Shown here: in pieces, positions 4,557 to 43,530 of the stretch | Layout of the letters: each line of letters opens with the position of its first letter | Numbering within the stretch: the stretch's first letter is position 1 | IMG/VR virus record: IMGVR_UViG_3300044627_001811 | Span: 1 to 43,945 of that record | From: a virus | Length of the DNA stretch: 43,945 bases | Reading direction: 5' to 3' (one strand) | Position numbers and translations under genes: made by a program | Notes under the pieces: generated by a model | What the model was told of the DNA's origin: nothing | Databases searched by the model: none | The model's input: only the letters and a program-made list of their open reading frames with translations

Positions 4557-5486
4557 TTACCAACACGTCAGGATGGCGAACGCATCGCCGCCGAAGCCCA
4601 CCTGGCCGACGGTAGATGTGGTCAGTGCACCACCCATGCCCCCGCCGCCGCAGCCTGGCGCGCCATGGCCACCACGGCCTTGAACGAGGCCGGTGGTTAA
4701 AGCAGTGCCGTGTGTGGAAGCACTGCCGGTGCCGCCTATGAAGTAGCCAAGATTCGCAACCGGCCGGAAACCAGCATTGCCAAAAGCCGCAGGAACGGTG
4801 GCCGTAGCGGAACCCTGCCCGCCAAGCAGCGTGGGAAAGGCACCCGCGCCCGTTAATTGTCCGCCGTTGGTGCCGGTCGCCGCTGCTGCCGGCAGTCCGC
4901 CGCCGCCCGTGCCGCCCGTAACAAACGCGCCGGTGGTCGGCAGCGTCAGGTTGGCCGCCGCGACAGTCGCACCGCCTGCCGTGCCGACTTGTGACGCCAG
5001 CACTTGAATCGCATACATCCAGCCCAGCGGCATGTTGGTTGCGGCAGCAATCGCCGCAGCGGTGCCGACCGTGCCGCCTGTTGCACCCGAAGCGTTGCCA
5101 CCATGTAAGCCGCCGTTGGCAAACGCGATGACGCCGTTCGCGGCGGTGGCCGGCTCGATCGCCACATAGCTGGCAAAGTTTGCCGTTGCCGTGGGTTTGC
5201 GCCCCGCCAGTGATAAATACAGCCGATCCGGCAATACAGCCAGGGGCATTTGAAGTATCGTGATTGCCCCACTTTGCCCGCCCGCACCACCAGCAGCGGT
5301 TGAGTTCGCGCCGACCACACCAGTGCCGCCATTACCACCGGCGCCAACCAGCACAATGGACAGCATGGACTTGCCACGTGGCTTGGTCCACGTTTTCCAA
5401 GACGTGCCAGCAGTTACCGCGTCGCCAAAGAACCACTGAACATCAGCGGCGCCTGTTGACTTCGGAGTGTGGGAAAAGTCCAGCAT
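4557..5486 (-). CDS. Glycine-rich tail/adhesin-like protein
   Basis: A 309-residue protein with a short N-terminal domain (about 1-45) followed by a long glycine- and alanine-rich region with GGTGGGG-, GGQGS- and GCGGGGMGG-type runs. This composition is seen in phage receptor-binding tips and glycine-rich tail proteins, where glycine-rich loops form the contact surface. It overlaps the upstream gene as TGATG at 5484-5488. Its position among tail-tip genes supports a host-range role. The specific family cannot be named from sequence alone. Confidence 0.65.
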   Translation of the reverse strand: MLDFSHTPKSTGAADVQWFFGDAVTAGTSWKTWTKPRGKSMLSIVLVGAGGNGGTGVVGANSTAAGGAGGQSGAITILQMPLAVLPDRLYLSLAGRKPTATANFASYVAIEPATAANGVIAFANGGLHGGNASGATGGTVGTAAAIAAATNMPLGWMYAIQVLASQVGTAGGATVAAANLTLPTTGAFVTGGTGGGGLPAAAATGTNGGQLTGAGAFPTLLGGQGSATATVPAAFGNAGFRPVANLGYFIGGTGSASTHGTALTTGLVQGRGGHGAPGCGGGGMGGALTTSTVGQVGFGGDAFAILTCW

Positions 5487-26426: not shown

Positions 26427-26466
26427 ACCGTAACACTGGCAAACCGTAACGAAACCGTACCGTAAC
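26427..26466 (-). repeat. GTTACGG repeat cluster upstream of terL
   Basis: ACCGTAAC occurs at 26427, 26443 and 26459 on the plus strand, a 16-base spacing, plus a partial ACCGTAC at 26454. On the minus strand these read GTTACGGT toward terL. The same element occurs in the other orientation upstream of the early block (27418-27594). CTGGCA/TGCCAG flank part of the cluster. Confidence 0.7.
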
Positions 26467-26798
26467 GTAATGCCAGAGATATTTAATAATTAATTATGGC
26501 ACAAAATTTTTTGCATATTTTTGCGCGCGGTCGGCTTCTACAACCCCGCACCGGTGCTCGGCGCCGGATCTTGGCCCCTACCCCCTCCGTACGCCCCCCT
26601 CTGAAAAATTCATGCACCAGGCCGGGCGCAAAACACCTATGTCCTTGATTCTACACGCATTACCTATTACCTGCGCAATTTGACATAATACACGTTATAC
26701 GTATGGTGCAATGCACATACTAACAGAATCAATGACTTAGTGTGTTAGCGCCTGCTCTGTGTGGGTCATTATCTGGCGTGAGCAGTGCAACATGGATG
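26467..26798. other. Gap between terL leader and terS: AT-rich, C-run and dyad elements
   Basis: No convincing gene. It holds an AT-rich stretch (26480-26520), C-runs at 26543-26546, 26575-26578, 26581-26585 and 26594-26599 (G-runs on the minus strand), a GTGCA-A-TGCAC dyad at about 26705-26715, and TTGACA at 26680 with a weak rightward -10 (TATGGT). An inverted repeat of GCCTGCTCTG at 26750-26759 and 26800-26809 spans the terS stop. These could be packaging (pac/cos), promoter or operator sites. Confidence 0.5.
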
Positions 26799-27317
26799 TC
26801 AGAGCAGGCCTGCAGCTTCTAGTGTTGCGTGAGTGATTACCTGCTGAGTGCGCGCACGGGCGTCGCCGGCGTCTGCAGTATTAATCCTTTCACCCTCAAT
26901 CAATCTAGGCTCTTTGGCTGCAGCTAGGCGCGCATTAGCATCGCGGATGATTGCTGTTAGGTCCACAGTCTTTACATTGATGTCGGCACGCGTACGCTGA
27001 CCATAGCGATCAGGATCCCGTTTTTCTGCTATCCATTGGAGGATCCCGGCTTTAACCCTTGCACCTTTAGCATTGCCATCAGCCTGGCCCATTACATCGA
27101 CCATTTGATCGACGAATGAATCCGCTGAATCCTTTATGGCGTCATACCATGCGGCCACAAGATCCGGCTTGCCATGGCGATATGCCCAAAGGTCCGCGCG
27201 CGTCAATTCATACGCGGCCGCCGTGTGGTCAATCCTGGCGCCGTCGCGGATTGCCTGAAGGATTGCTGGCCATATGCCATCAATCTTCGCCCTTTTCTCT
27301 ACGCTTATTCCAGCCAT
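26799..27317 (-). CDS. terS: Terminase small subunit
   Basis: A 172-residue DNA-recognition subunit of the packaging machine. Residues 1-60 form a helix-turn-helix-like module (IDHTAAAYELTRADLWAYRHG), then a helical oligomerisation segment (FVDQMVDVMGQADGNAKGARVKAGILQWIAEKRDPDRYG), which is a hallmark of phage TerS. A disordered C-terminal tail ends in ATLEAAGLL. I chose ATG 27317 (MAGISVEKR); the open frame reaches 27368 but starts with unrelated aromatic residues. It is isolated between two repeat-rich control regions instead of being adjacent to terL. Confidence 0.85.
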   Translation of the reverse strand: MAGISVEKRAKIDGIWPAILQAIRDGARIDHTAAAYELTRADLWAYRHGKPDLVAAWYDAIKDSADSFVDQMVDVMGQADGNAKGARVKAGILQWIAEKRDPDRYGQRTRADINVKTVDLTAIIRDANARLAAAKEPRLIEGERINTADAGDARARTQQVITHATLEAAGLL

Positions 27318-27417
27318 GTATTCAGAATACCACACACCACAAAAGCCAAAGCGAAACGCCCGGCACAATAATTATCTGCCAGCAGGTTTAATTCTGTACG
27401 CTGTACGGATACGATAC

Positions 27418-27594
27418 GTTACGGTATTACGGTGTCCTACGGACACACCGTAATGACCGTATCGGTACGGAATCGTTACGGTTCGTTACGGTTCGTTACG
27501 GTTTCGCTATCGTAAGTCATTGATTCTTGGCAAACGAGTACGGTTTTGTTACGGTTTTTGAATACCCTTACATTACGTAAGGGCATACCGTAAT
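27418..27594 (+). repeat. GTTACGG repeat array upstream of the early block
   Basis: GTTACGGT occurs at 27418, 27475, 27485, 27495 and 27548, the middle three as a perfect 10-base tandem. Inverted copies (ACCGTAAT) lie at 27447 and 27587. ATTACGGTGT (27426-27435) and ACACCGTAAT (27445-27454) form a 10-bp dyad, and CCCTTAC/GTAAGGG form another at about 27565-27583. A 10-base period places copies on one DNA face. Operator, iteron-like origin or terminase-binding functions are all possible. Confidence 0.75.
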
Positions 27595-28673: not shown

Positions 28674-28750
28674 TAAACCCCCAACGGCCAGCGCCTTAGT
28701 AATAGGGCGCTAGGCGGTGCGGGTTTCGCACTATCTGAATGGAGAACAAA

Positions 28751-28963
28751 TTGACCCCCCTCAACAAGACAGTAAACCGCCGGACCATTGGCACGCATCG
28801 CGGCCGGCGGTTTATCGTGATCCTGGAGCCTGGCGACGTTATCGGGTTTCGGCCTGAACGCACGCGCACCGTATTTTATACGACGTTAGCAGCATGTTTT
28901 GACATGGCAGTCCGGCAACATGTCGCCGCTAAACGTGCAGCGAAAAAGAAAGGTAAACAATGA
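28751..28963 (+). CDS. Small basic early protein, unknown
   Basis: A 70-residue, strongly basic protein with a lysine-rich C-terminus (AAKRAAKKKGKQ). I place the start at TTG 28751 because GGAG lies 6 bases upstream, whereas the in-frame ATG at 28739 itself contains that site. The compact core (RRFIVILEPGDVIGFRPERT) is beta-like. A nucleic-acid-binding role is conceivable from charge only. Confidence 0.55.
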   Translation: MTPLNKTVNRRTIGTHRGRRFIVILEPGDVIGFRPERTRTVFYTTLAACFDMAVRQHVAAKRAAKKKGKQ

Positions 28964-29070: not shown

Positions 29071-29231
29071 TGCTCTGGCGTAACCTGTCGGCGCTACGGC
29101 GCCGGCGATTACTTAACCTGCAGGCTCATGCCGAGGTGGCGGCCGCGCATGGCGATACGGCGTACAGCCGGAAAGCCCTGCGCATTTATTGGCGTTTTAA
29201 CCCGGCCGTAAAGCCCTGGAATCTATGGTAA
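29070..29231 (+). CDS. 53-residue basic protein, unknown
   Basis: Starts at the ATG of a TAATG junction. The arginine-rich start (RNLSALRRRRLLNLQ) and tryptophan-rich end (YWRFNPAVKPWNLW) are notable. No family recognised. It overlaps the next ORF by 7 bases. Confidence 0.5.
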   Translation: MLWRNLSALRRRRLLNLQAHAEVAAAHGDTAYSRKALRIYWRFNPAVKPWNLW

Positions 29232-29416
29232 ATCTGCCCGAATCCTGGCCATTTCCTGATGCGGTAATCGCGCCTGATCCATCGGATCCGCCGGTAATCG
29301 CGGATAAAAGTATTGACACGGCCAAAAAGCCCAGTATTATGGGCCTGCGTGGTAATCGCGGCAGGTCTGTGAAACCCCCGGTAATCGCCGGGGATATTGA
29401 TGATGCACCTTTTTAA
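29225..29416 (+). CDS. 63-residue ORF carrying the GGTAATCGCG repeats
   Basis: A proline-rich ORF whose apparent VIA repeats (AVIAP, PVIAD, PVIAG) come from GGTAATCGCG DNA elements; one further element is read in another frame (RGNRG). It also contains a promoter (29313-29340). This suggests the DNA elements, not the protein, are the main constraint. It may be a genuine short protein or a non-coding control segment that happens to be open. Confidence 0.4.
   Translation: MVNLPESWPFPDAVIAPDPSDPPVIADKSIDTAKKPSIMGLRGNRGRSVKPPVIAGDIDDAPF
29313..29340 (+). promoter_or_regulatory. Sigma70-type promoter flanked by GGTAATCGCG
   Basis: TTGACA (29313-29318), 16-base spacer, TATTAT (29335-29340). GGTAATCGCG copies lie 10 bases upstream of the -35 and about 10 bases after the -10. 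It would transcribe the 29429 gene onward. Confidence 0.65.
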
Positions 29417-29428
29417 TTGGAGATTGAC

Positions 29429-29758
29429 ATGACCACCTTGAATAAACTCGACTCGTTTGAAGTAATCGCGGAGCAAGAGCGCCAGGCATGGATTGCTGGC
29501 GATACAGTAAAGGCCACGATGCTGGCCAGACTGGCGGATGCCGTCGAAACCACGGAAGGTGAAGACGATCGCCTTGGCGAAAGTTATGCCGATGGTGAAA
29601 AGACAGGCCGGGCTGACGGTATTTGCACGGTGCGCGAAGCTATCCAGCCGGTTATGGACGAGCTGGAGGAACTGGCCTACGGCAAAGGCGCCATCAAGAA
29701 AGCCGAATTCGTGGCCGTGTTTGAGCGGCTTACCAAGGCATTGGATGATGCCGAATGA
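29429..29758 (+). CDS. Acidic early protein, unknown
   Basis: A 109-residue acidic, helical protein. Start ATG 29429 follows GGAG at 29418-29421. Contains GESYADGEKTGRADGICTVR and a charged helical C-terminus ending ALDDAE. It is coupled by ATGA to the next gene. No domain recognised. Confidence 0.6.
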   Translation: MTTLNKLDSFEVIAEQERQAWIAGDTVKATMLARLADAVETTEGEDDRLGESYADGEKTGRADGICTVREAIQPVMDELEELAYGKGAIKKAEFVAVFERLTKALDDAE

Positions 29759-29952
29759 GCTACCATATCAAACCCCAGGGCGACAGCTTTCTGGTCATCA
29801 AGACCGCGGATCCGAGTAACCCGAAGGACCGCATGGCCGAGCGGATTGTCGCAGTGTGCGGTAATCTGCCCGACGCGACCGCCGTATTGAAGGGGTTGTA
29901 CTGGGTGGCGGCTGCGGAAAATACGCAAGTCAACGCCCGCGGACAACATTGA
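29755..29952 (+). CDS. Small early protein, unknown
   Basis: A 65-residue protein with a beta-rich start (MSYHIKPQGDSFLVIKTAD) and short helix. Coupled by ATGA to the preceding gene; its last codons overlap the -35 of the next promoter. Function unknown. Confidence 0.55.
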   Translation: MSYHIKPQGDSFLVIKTADPSNPKDRMAERIVAVCGNLPDATAVLKGLYWVAAAENTQVNARGQH

Positions 29953-29977
29953 CAGTCCTGCGGTAATCGCGTATCCT
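29949..29977 (+). promoter_or_regulatory. Sigma70-type promoter with GGTAATCGCG in the spacer
   Basis: TTGACA (29949-29954), 17-base spacer, TATCCT (29972-29977). GGTAATCGCG fills the last ten spacer bases, so any protein bound there would directly control RNA polymerase access. It serves the gene at 29999 and those downstream. Confidence 0.65.
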
Positions 29978-29998
29978 TTGACAATTGGAGGCAACATT

Positions 29999-30193
29999 AT
30001 GGGCCTGAAAAAAGTCGTTCGGTTTATCTCGCAAGCTGAAAAACCAGTGAGCCAGGTGTTCGATACTGGCCGGCGTGGCAATCCAATGATGGGCTGCGAC
30101 TGCGTGCAGTGCTTCGGCTATTGTTCGGTCAATTTTGAAATAGCGGAGCGAGAGAAAGCGGAGAAACGGCAGGCACCGGGAGATGACGAATGA
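29999..30193 (+). CDS. Small cysteine-rich protein, unknown
   Basis: A 64-residue protein with ATG 29999 behind GGAGG. The middle CDCVQCFGYC could bind zinc or form disulphides. The C-terminus is helical and charged. It is coupled by ATGA to the lipoprotein gene. No family recognised. Confidence 0.6.
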   Translation: MGLKKVVRFISQAEKPVSQVFDTGRRGNPMMGCDCVQCFGYCSVNFEIAEREKAEKRQAPGDDE

Positions 30194-30543
30194 AACGCGC
30201 GGTAATCGCGGCTGCTTTACTGGCGCTGACCGGCTGCACAGTTGTCAACGAGCATAAGCTGCCGCCGGCTGATTGGCCCGCGCTGGAAATAACTGTTGAG
30301 CGCAATGGCTTTTGGGAAACTCAGGAAAAGTGCGGACGCAACGTGGCCGAAGTGCTGTTAATTGGGCCTGCGCTTGGCTGCATGTGGGTCAATTTTGACG
30401 AGATGCGCTGCCGGATATACCTGTGGCTTGATGTATTGGAGCATGAAATGCTGCATTGCCGGGGGTATGACCATTACGGATCGTCCGACCTGGCTGACTA
30501 TTGGGAACAGTGGAAAAAGGATAATCAAAATGTGCAACGGTAA
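30190..30543 (+). CDS. Lipoprotein with metzincin-like zinc site
   Basis: A 117-residue protein with a lipoprotein signal (LALTGC, Cys16) and the motif HEMLHCRGYDH at 85-95, which fits HExxHxxGxxH with three histidine ligands. It would sit on the periplasmic side of the inner membrane or on the outer membrane. An early-expressed exported peptidase could act on cell-envelope proteins, perhaps in superinfection exclusion, but this is inference. ATGA overlaps on the upstream side; its first codons include a GGTAATCGCG copy. Confidence 0.7.
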   Translation: MKRAVIAAALLALTGCTVVNEHKLPPADWPALEITVERNGFWETQEKCGRNVAEVLLIGPALGCMWVNFDEMRCRIYLWLDVLEHEMLHCRGYDHYGSSDLADYWEQWKKDNQNVQR

Positions 30544-30679
30544 TTGCGATCAGGGTCGGCGCTGCGACTGCGTAACCAGCGATTTTCTTGACGGACTGAT
30601 TACGTTGGGCTTTGCGGTGGCAATGCTGGCGGCTGGCGGCGTTATTGGGTTTCTTGTTGGCTTTTTGGTGGGGGAGTGA
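30530..30679 (+). CDS. 49-residue membrane protein with cysteine-rich head
   Basis: ATG 30530 lies inside the end of the lipoprotein gene. The N-terminus MCNGNCDQGRRCDC has four cysteines, followed by a glycine-rich hydrophobic segment (ITLGFAVAMLAAGGVIGFLVG). Function unknown; it could be a partner of the lipoprotein. Confidence 0.5.
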   Translation: MCNGNCDQGRRCDCVTSDFLDGLITLGFAVAMLAAGGVIGFLVGFLVGE

Positions 30680-37969: not shown

Positions 37970-39022
37970 ATGGCCGCTTACTACAACGAGATTGATCCCT
38001 ACGCCGCCCAGTGGCTGCGTAACCTGATCGCCGCGGGGCACATTGCGCCGGGCGACGTGGACGAAAGGAGCATCAACGATGTCAAAGCCGACGACCTTAA
38101 AAACTACACCCAGTGCCACTTCTTCGCCGGCATCGGGGTCTAGTCTTATGCCCTCCGACTCGCAGGCTGGCCCGACGACCGGCCTGTGTGGACTGGAAGC
38201 TGCCCCTGCCAGCCATTCAGCGCAGCAGGAAAGCAGCAAGGAACCGCAGACGACCGGCACCTCTGGCCAGTCTGGTCAGAACTTATCCGCCAGCGAAAGC
38301 CTGCGGTTGTCTTTGGTGAACAGGTTGAAGCAGCAATCCGCCACGGCTGGCTCGACCTTGTTCAAGCTGACCTGGAAGGAATCGACTACGCCTTCGCAGC
38401 GGCCGGTATCCCTGCTGCGGGCTTCGGTGCGCCGCACATCCGACAGCGATTGTGGTTCGTGGCTGAGTCCAACCAGTTGCAGTCCGAACAGTTTGCGCGG
38501 TCAGGGGCAAGACCCGGAGTTGCGGAAGGCGCAGGGTCATGCGGTGAACCTGCAAGATCAGGTACGCCTCGCCGGCTGGGTAACAACAACAACAACAACA
38601 AGGGACTGGAAGGACACTGCGGCGGACATCAAGCCGAGGGAGGATGGGACGGAGCGGTTCGATCAGCTGCCGCGGCAGGCGAATCTGGCGGGGTGGCAGA
38701 CTCCGAAAGCGATGGACGGGGTGTTCTCGACACCACGAACGTCGGATCGTCCGATGCACCGAGCAACGCATCTGCAAACGCAGACGATGGCGCAACTGTC
38801 CGACAAGAGCGACCTCCCGGCCAACGGGCCGGCCCGACTAACGGCCACTGGCGAAATGCTGATTGGCTCCACTGCCGGGATGGAAAGTGGCGGCCAGTTG
38901 AACCCGGCACATTCCCGCTGGCTCATGGGGCTGCCAGCCGAGTGGGACGCCTGCGCGCCTACGGCAACGCGATCGTCCCGCAGGTCGCCGCAGAAGTCAT
39001 CTCAGCCTACATGCTTGGCTGA
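37970..39022 (+). pseudogene. C5 cytosine DNA methyltransferase frame interrupted by an in-frame TAG
   Basis: ATG 37970 follows CTTCTGGAG. The frame encodes a recognisable C5 methyltransferase: motif I FFAGIGV at about 51-57, then TAG at 38141-38143 (codon 58). Reading past the stop gives [16 protein letters not shown], motif [10 protein letters not shown] (catalytic cysteine), VVFGEQV (motif VI-like), [10 protein letters not shown] (motif VIII) and [15 protein letters not shown] (motif X), a complete set. In homologues I recall, codon 58 is tryptophan; one base change makes TGG into TAG. Without readthrough only 57 residues are made. A GTG restart at 38186 lacks motif I. Confidence 0.8.
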
Positions 39023-39032
39023 TCTCCTGTGA
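38079..39032 (+). CDS. Long ORF overprinting the methyltransferase gene
   Basis: A 317-residue ORF in another frame of the methyltransferase DNA. ATG 38079 follows a strong GAAAGGAG site; its TGA overlaps the polymerase GTG start (GTGA), so it fits the operon better than the methyltransferase frame. It is serine/threonine-rich, with an ordered C-terminal part: [50 protein letters not shown] recall similar WLMGxPxxW proteins in other phages encoded beside or over cytosine methyltransferases. Function unknown; specificity or partner subunit of the methyltransferase are possibilities. Confidence 0.7.
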
Positions 39033-42851: not shown

Positions 42852-43093
42852 TGCCGTTATACGATTTGTTCTGCCCCACCTGCCACCGCACGGTCGAACG
42901 CCAGTGCAAGATTGACGACCGGTTAAGCCAACGCTGCTACCACGATGGCGATGTGTTGACCGTAAAGGTGGCACCTGTCTACGGCAAGATGGCGGGCACG
43001 GTGCTGAAAGGTGGCGGACCTGATCGGTTCACCGCGGACGTGCTCGGTGTGCGGCTGGACGAACTGCCTAGCGGATTGCGGACAACCAAATGA
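42851..43093 (+). CDS. Small zinc-ribbon protein (FmdB-like)
   Basis: An 80-residue protein beginning MPLYDLFCPTCHRTVE, the start of FmdB-type zinc-ribbon regulators, but only one clear C-x-x-C pair plus C19 and C29 are visible. ATG shares the A of the preceding stop (TAATG). It could regulate transcription or bind a partner; the C-terminal half is unknown. Confidence 0.65.
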   Translation: MPLYDLFCPTCHRTVERQCKIDDRLSQRCYHDGDVLTVKVAPVYGKMAGTVLKGGGPDRFTADVLGVRLDELPSGLRTTK

Positions 43094-43530
43094 GTTTCAC
43101 CGACGGCAACAAAGCGGACGGCAAGCACTACTGGCTTACGCCACCGGAATTGATGGACCGGTTGCAGTTAGAGTTCGACTTCAACTACGACCCCTGCCCT
43201 TTCCCTAAGCCCGAGGACTACGACGGACTGGACGCTGAGTGGGGGTCGCGCAGTTACGTCAACCCGCCATTCGGCGTCGTCATGCATAAAGGCAAAAAGA
43301 AAGGCGCCACTGCTTGGGCGCGGAAGTGCATCGAAGAACACCGCAAGGGCAAGACCGTGGTGATGGTCTATCCGATTGACAAGTGGGTGTTGATGCTGCT
43401 GGACGCCGGCGCCAAGGTGCGCAACCTAAAGGACGTGAAGTGGTGCGCCACTGAGGACGGGACGCCCGGCAAAGGCACCGGACGGCATGTTGCTATGTTC
43501 GTGCTAGAGGCCGAACAGCCGCCCAAATAA
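43090..43530 (+). CDS. dam: Phage N6-adenine DNA methyltransferase
   Basis: A 146-residue member of the phage DNA N-6-adenine methyltransferase family: DPCPFP (about 34-39), catalytic NPPF (58-61), WARKCIEEHRKG, VVMVYPIDKW and a C-terminal GTGRHVAMFVL. It likely protects phage DNA from restriction. ATGA overlap with the zinc-ribbon gene. Its 3' end overlaps, antisense, the last 38 bases of a leftward membrane gene. Confidence 0.85.
   Translation: MSFTDGNKADGKHYWLTPPELMDRLQLEFDFNYDPCPFPKPEDYDGLDAEWGSRSYVNPPFGVVMHKGKKKGATAWARKCIEEHRKGKTVVMVYPIDKWVLMLLDAGAKVRNLKDVKWCATEDGTPGKGTGRHVAMFVLEAEQPPK

Follow-up and report, generated by a model that had tools for sequence, protein, structure and literature searches.

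A conserved, single-orientation cluster of a short repeat in the early region of an uncultured podovirus-like phage: candidate binding sites for a regulator

Why should one short asymmetric repeat recur eight times, always on the same strand, in the opening genes of a phage early region? The window analysed here comprises positions 1-43,945 of the IMG/VR record IMGVR_UViG_3300044627_001811, from an uncultured virus that looks like a podovirus. Its structural genes, including a T7-type tail protein, portal and terminase, occupy the minus strand up to ~26.4 kb. The early/replication block runs on the plus strand from ~27.8 kb and codes for a RuvC-like resolvase, a phosphoesterase, a helicase, endonuclease VII, an exonuclease, a Gp2.5-like single-strand binding protein, a methyltransferase, a family A DNA polymerase and a primase-helicase. 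The motif cluster is placed in the run of small genes without annotated function, ~1.3 kb long, that opens this block.

The cluster of GGTAATCGCG spans 29263-30548 and contains five exact and three one-mismatch copies with an asymmetric consensus of about 11 letters, approximately CRGTAATCGCG. The copies and the elements around them are as follows (window positions).

29225..29416, plus strand: 63-aa ORF, conserved (97% and 87% identity); contains copies 1-4 and P1
29263..29272, plus strand: copy 1, exact; Val-Ile-Ala (VIA) frame in the 63-aa ORF, 38 bases after its ATG
29293..29302, plus strand: copy 2, exact; VIA frame, 10 bp ahead of the P1 -35 element
29313..29340, plus strand: putative promoter P1, TTGACA-16-TATTAT, consensus; inside the 63-aa ORF
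29351..29360, plus strand: copy 3, exact; Gly-Asn-Arg frame, at about +5 from the presumed P1 start
29380..29389, plus strand: copy 4, one mismatch (GGTAATCGCC); VIA frame
29461..29470, plus strand: copy 5, one mismatch (AGTAATCGCG); in gene 29429-29758, 32 bases past its ATG, VIA frame
29860..29869, plus strand: degenerate copy (GGTAATCTGC); exact (GGTAATCGCG) in G002 and G003
29949..29977, plus strand: putative promoter P2, TTGACA-17-TATCCT, consensus; overlaps the upstream gene's stop codon, mostly intergenic
29962..29971, plus strand: copy 6, exact; intergenic, within the P2 spacer and next to the -10 element; CAGTAATCGCG in lineage B
30201..30210, plus strand: copy 7, exact; VIA frame, 11 bases after the ATG of lipoprotein-like gene 30190-30543
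30539..30548, plus strand: copy 8, one mismatch (GGTAATTGCG); Gly-Asn-Cys frame, in the next small gene, 9 bases past its ATG

Seven of the eight copies thus fall within ORFs and all eight within 1.3 kb, and relative to gene starts they are found 9-38 bases past an ATG, in mid-gene, or 37 bases ahead of a start. A previous sequence-only reading had reported the five exact and two of the one-mismatch copies, all recovered here, and had missed the third one-mismatch copy at 30539. It had also placed one copy inside a TTGACA-17-TATCCT spacer and two copies around a second promoter, and both arrangements are present, the first at 29949 and the second as TTGACA-16-TATTAT at 29313 with one copy upstream and one just downstream. 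Its proposed spacing by multiples of about 29 bases describes three of the copy-to-copy distances (30, 58 and 29), whose four copies all belong to one 63-codon ORF; the other distances (81, 501, 239 and 338) do not follow it, and there is no helical phasing.

The clustering exceeds what composition or coding produced in simulations. The core TAATCGCG occurs six times in 29250-30560 and nowhere else in the window on either strand, the shorter GTAATCG occurs seven times there vs once elsewhere, and the sole further one-mismatch match in the window is at 5327 on the minus strand; a motif equally frequent throughout the window, which would have spoken against the earlier reading, is therefore not what the count gave. 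With a position weight matrix derived from all copies, the eight copies score at least 14.7 bits vs 12.7 for the best site elsewhere in 44 kb. Sixty order-2 Markov simulations of the whole window gave no 10-mer with eight copies in 1.3 kb (maximum 7), and 3000 synonymous-codon randomisations gave at most six copies and at most three exact ones, vs the eight and five observed, with eight copies in 0 of 3000. All eight copies are on the plus strand and none on the minus strand, and those in the clusters of relatives likewise share one orientation. A chance origin of the repeats is not supported.

The available relatives comprise near-identical IMG/VR records (L014, L021), slightly diverged ones (L016, L017, L022) and a sister lineage B consisting of G002 (3300017780_002673) and G003 (3300020044_005319). 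The motif cluster is absent from the wider relatives L025, L026 and L018-L020. No cultured relatives were found at the DNA level for a 5.5 kb region, nor for the 63-aa, lipoprotein-like or alternative-slot proteins described here. Paired motif copies were found in 99 stretches of other viruses, where the dense ones outside this phage group are tandem peptide-repeat genes, and matches to the promoter-spacer pattern across viral contigs were confined to this phage group. The literal string GGTAATCGCG appears once each in nine papers, none of which is about phages by title.

Comparison of the two lineages indicates the level at which the repeat is maintained. The window and G003 differ at 1 of 70 motif bases, vs 204 of 925 (22%) outside the motif, and at third codon positions the counts are 0 of 20 inside vs 132 of 343 (38%) outside. 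Random 10-mers of the region match this motif conservation with P ~1e-4, in what amounts to one deep comparison, since just two lineages are known; the copies were picked from the window only, so the test is not circular. The 63-aa ORF, which holds four copies and is free of indels between the lineages, evolves slowly at its third positions as a whole (10 of 63 changed), probably because P1 also lies inside it. The five Val-Ile-Ala copies all use GTA ATC, although GTA accounts for just 12.7% of Val codons and is absent from the seven other VIA triplets in the proteins scanned; of the remaining copies, two read Gly-Asn-Arg/Cys and one is intergenic. Together with the synonymous randomisations, the conserved promoter copy and the presence of a copy in either of two unrelated genes occupying one slot (see below), the GTA ATC use and the frozen third positions show that the constraint works on DNA or RNA and not on the peptide.

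P1 and P2 look like sigma-70 promoters. Their hexamers are identical in both lineages, and from consensus and conservation we infer that they are active promoters. Non-motif bases of the P2 spacer differ between lineages (GTCCTGCG to ACCCCGCA), and the motif there changed once, to CAGTAATCGCG, a variant also found among other copies. The promoter copies, whose loss in relatives would have counted against the earlier proposal, are thus conserved. Promoter overlap by two of the eight copies is not significant on its own, given the copy density. Copy 1 (29263) is unaltered in G002, G003 and L016, and the copy 8 variant GGTAATTGCG is identical across all relatives. Elsewhere the set turns over. 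The slot 29417-29754 contains unrelated genes in the window (gene 29429-29758) and in L016, G002 and G003, yet each alternative gene has an AGTAATCGCR copy near its 5' end, the alternative to the window gene having its own AGTAATCGCA 14 bases after the ATG. An extra copy at 1607 is restricted to L016 and L017 (GGTAATCGCC in L016), an extra GGTAATCGTG (position 3537 of L028) occurs in lineage B only, and the 29860 copy is exact in that lineage alone. Binding sites evolve in this way, being gained and lost while the copies at promoters stay fixed.

The explanation we favour, at about an even chance, is that a single sequence-specific regulator, encoded by phage or host, binds the copies as asymmetric one-direction sites, which serve as operators at P1 and P2 and perhaps as roadblocks within genes. 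Protein binding to DNA, with repression as its effect, is what we infer from this arrangement. Such a regulator would control transcription across these 1.3 kb of small early genes. Bound protein would occupy the spacer between -35 and -10 at P2, while P1 would offer one site immediately past the start and another ahead of its -35 element. From these positions the regulator would block or modulate initiation. By analogy with the operators and stoperators of L5, the copies within genes, which face the direction of transcription, may hinder elongation or reinforce occupancy. The regulon of a DNA-binding protein envisaged in the sequence-only reading fits these data, in that the sites are conserved, all point one way and overlap two promoters that are themselves conserved; the binding protein itself did not emerge from the searches. 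The early proteins tried matched no DNA-binding regulator family, and the predicted structure of a basic 74-aa protein (28739-28963) is of low confidence (mean pLDDT 56).

In phage P1, several asymmetric operators dispersed over the genome serve one repressor, C1. Those operators are longer than the copies here and genome-dispersed, and no C1-like gene was found in the window. The closest analogy is the L5 system. The sites of L5 are 13-bp, asymmetric and orientation-dependent, lie in promoters and in transcribed DNA, and lose repression when reversed (PMC9283540). Like the copies here, the stoperators and operators of the cluster A mycobacteriophages L5 and Bxb1 are short, asymmetric and numerous, keep one orientation relative to transcription, and occur within transcribed DNA as well as at early promoters (PMC9283540, PMC6550527), promoter activity being presumed in our case. 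However, the sequence differs, the copies here are clustered in 1.3 kb and mostly in coding sequence, whereas the L5 and Bxb1 sites are genome-wide and in short intergenic gaps, and no repressor or integrase was found (HTH_3, HTH_17, RHH and integrase had no match anywhere in the window, where other folds are possible and the record may be incomplete). Because of these differences, namely sites that are not genome-wide and mainly in genes and the lack of a match to such a repressor or integrase, membership in the L5 type is not claimed. The start-associated sequences (SAS) of cluster K mycobacteriophages are likewise asymmetric repeats (13-bp), mostly in one orientation, and they accompany non-structural genes (PMC3203893). 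They sit 3-7 bases ahead of start codons and partly pair with 16S rRNA, whereas the copies here are in genes or a promoter and none lies 3-7 bases upstream of a start.

Directional multi-copy control sites are well studied in few phage groups only, mycobacteriophages above all. If an unrelated and apparently repressor-less podovirus keeps a conserved set within its genes, where it constrains codon choice, this would point to a new regulator, and the consensus together with the two promoters makes the proposal directly testable. More tentatively, this podovirus without a detectable repressor may time or silence its early block via stoperator-like sites, mostly in coding sequence at a cost in codon choice, through an uncharacterised DNA- or RNA-binding protein.

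An RNA-level element, in which an RNA-binding protein or small RNA recognises GGUAAUCGC in early mRNA and thereby sets how the small genes are translated or how stable their message is, is rather unlikely. In its favour, the single orientation in transcribed DNA, with every copy on the sense strand, suits RNA recognition equally well, and several copies lie within ~40 bases of starts (38, 32, 11 and 9 after the ATG, and 14 in the alternative gene). It would also accommodate copy 3, which lies within a strong conserved hairpin (CCUGCGYG GUAAU CGCGGCAGG, 29341-29375) with a GUAAU pentaloop whose closing pair has P 0.97. The copies as a group, however, share no common structure: no RNA hairpin common to all of them was found, the closing pair is missing in the AGTAATC copies and in window copies 4, 7 and 8, and a search of Rfam families gave nothing significant. 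Moreover, the P2-spacer copy is upstream of P2's own transcript. The hairpin is placed at the presumed 5' end of the P1 transcript, and its stem shows a C-G to U-G change in the window.

Direct repeats in one orientation, grouped at one place in the genome, might also form an array of the iteron, origin or centromere type to which a replication or partition protein binds. This is improbable given the irregular spacing and the spread across several genes, with no initiator or par gene found nearby and no initiator family among the neighbouring small genes; the iteron or origin-like set also offered by the sequence-only reading thus obtained no positive support. A better candidate for that role is a GTTACGG array at ~26427-27593, whose units are regularly spaced by 10 and 16 bases. 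Its GTTACGGT / ACCGTAAC repeats (26427-26465 and 27418-27593) flank the terminase small subunit gene (26799-27368, minus strand) and recur with the same 10-/16-base spacing in the relative L133, as a candidate origin, pac or operator array.

There is likewise a slim chance that the phage has adopted the site of a host regulator, as the sigma-70-like P1 and P2 and the lack of a phage RNA polymerase among the large ORFs scanned might suggest; against this, the promoter-with-motif pattern occurs in six contigs of an 84,980-species collection, as scattered, single, chance-like matches. Finally, a V-I-A peptide motif or recent duplications as the source of the repeats, suggested by the VIA reading of five of the seven in-ORF copies and by three (PP)VIA(x)D units in the 63-aa protein, is a highly improbable reading and already contradicted, by the two copies reading G-N-[RC] and the intergenic one, by the fixed, rare codon choice and frozen third positions, and by flanking sequences unlike each other, while the 5:2 split of usable frames needs no peptide cause because the third frame has a stop (TAA).

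Several proteins of the region carry features of their own. The 63-aa protein, for which no homologues were found outside this phage group, ends in DIDDAPF, a tail that resembles the acidic tip seen in single-strand binding proteins. No family matched the lipoprotein-like early protein (30190-30543) above threshold and no relatives of it were found in the bacterial genomes searched; it has an LTGC lipobox and a HEMLHCRGYDH motif that suggests a metal-binding, protease-like site. Two DNA methyltransferase-like genes are located at 38043-39032 and 43090-43530, the second short and Dam-like.
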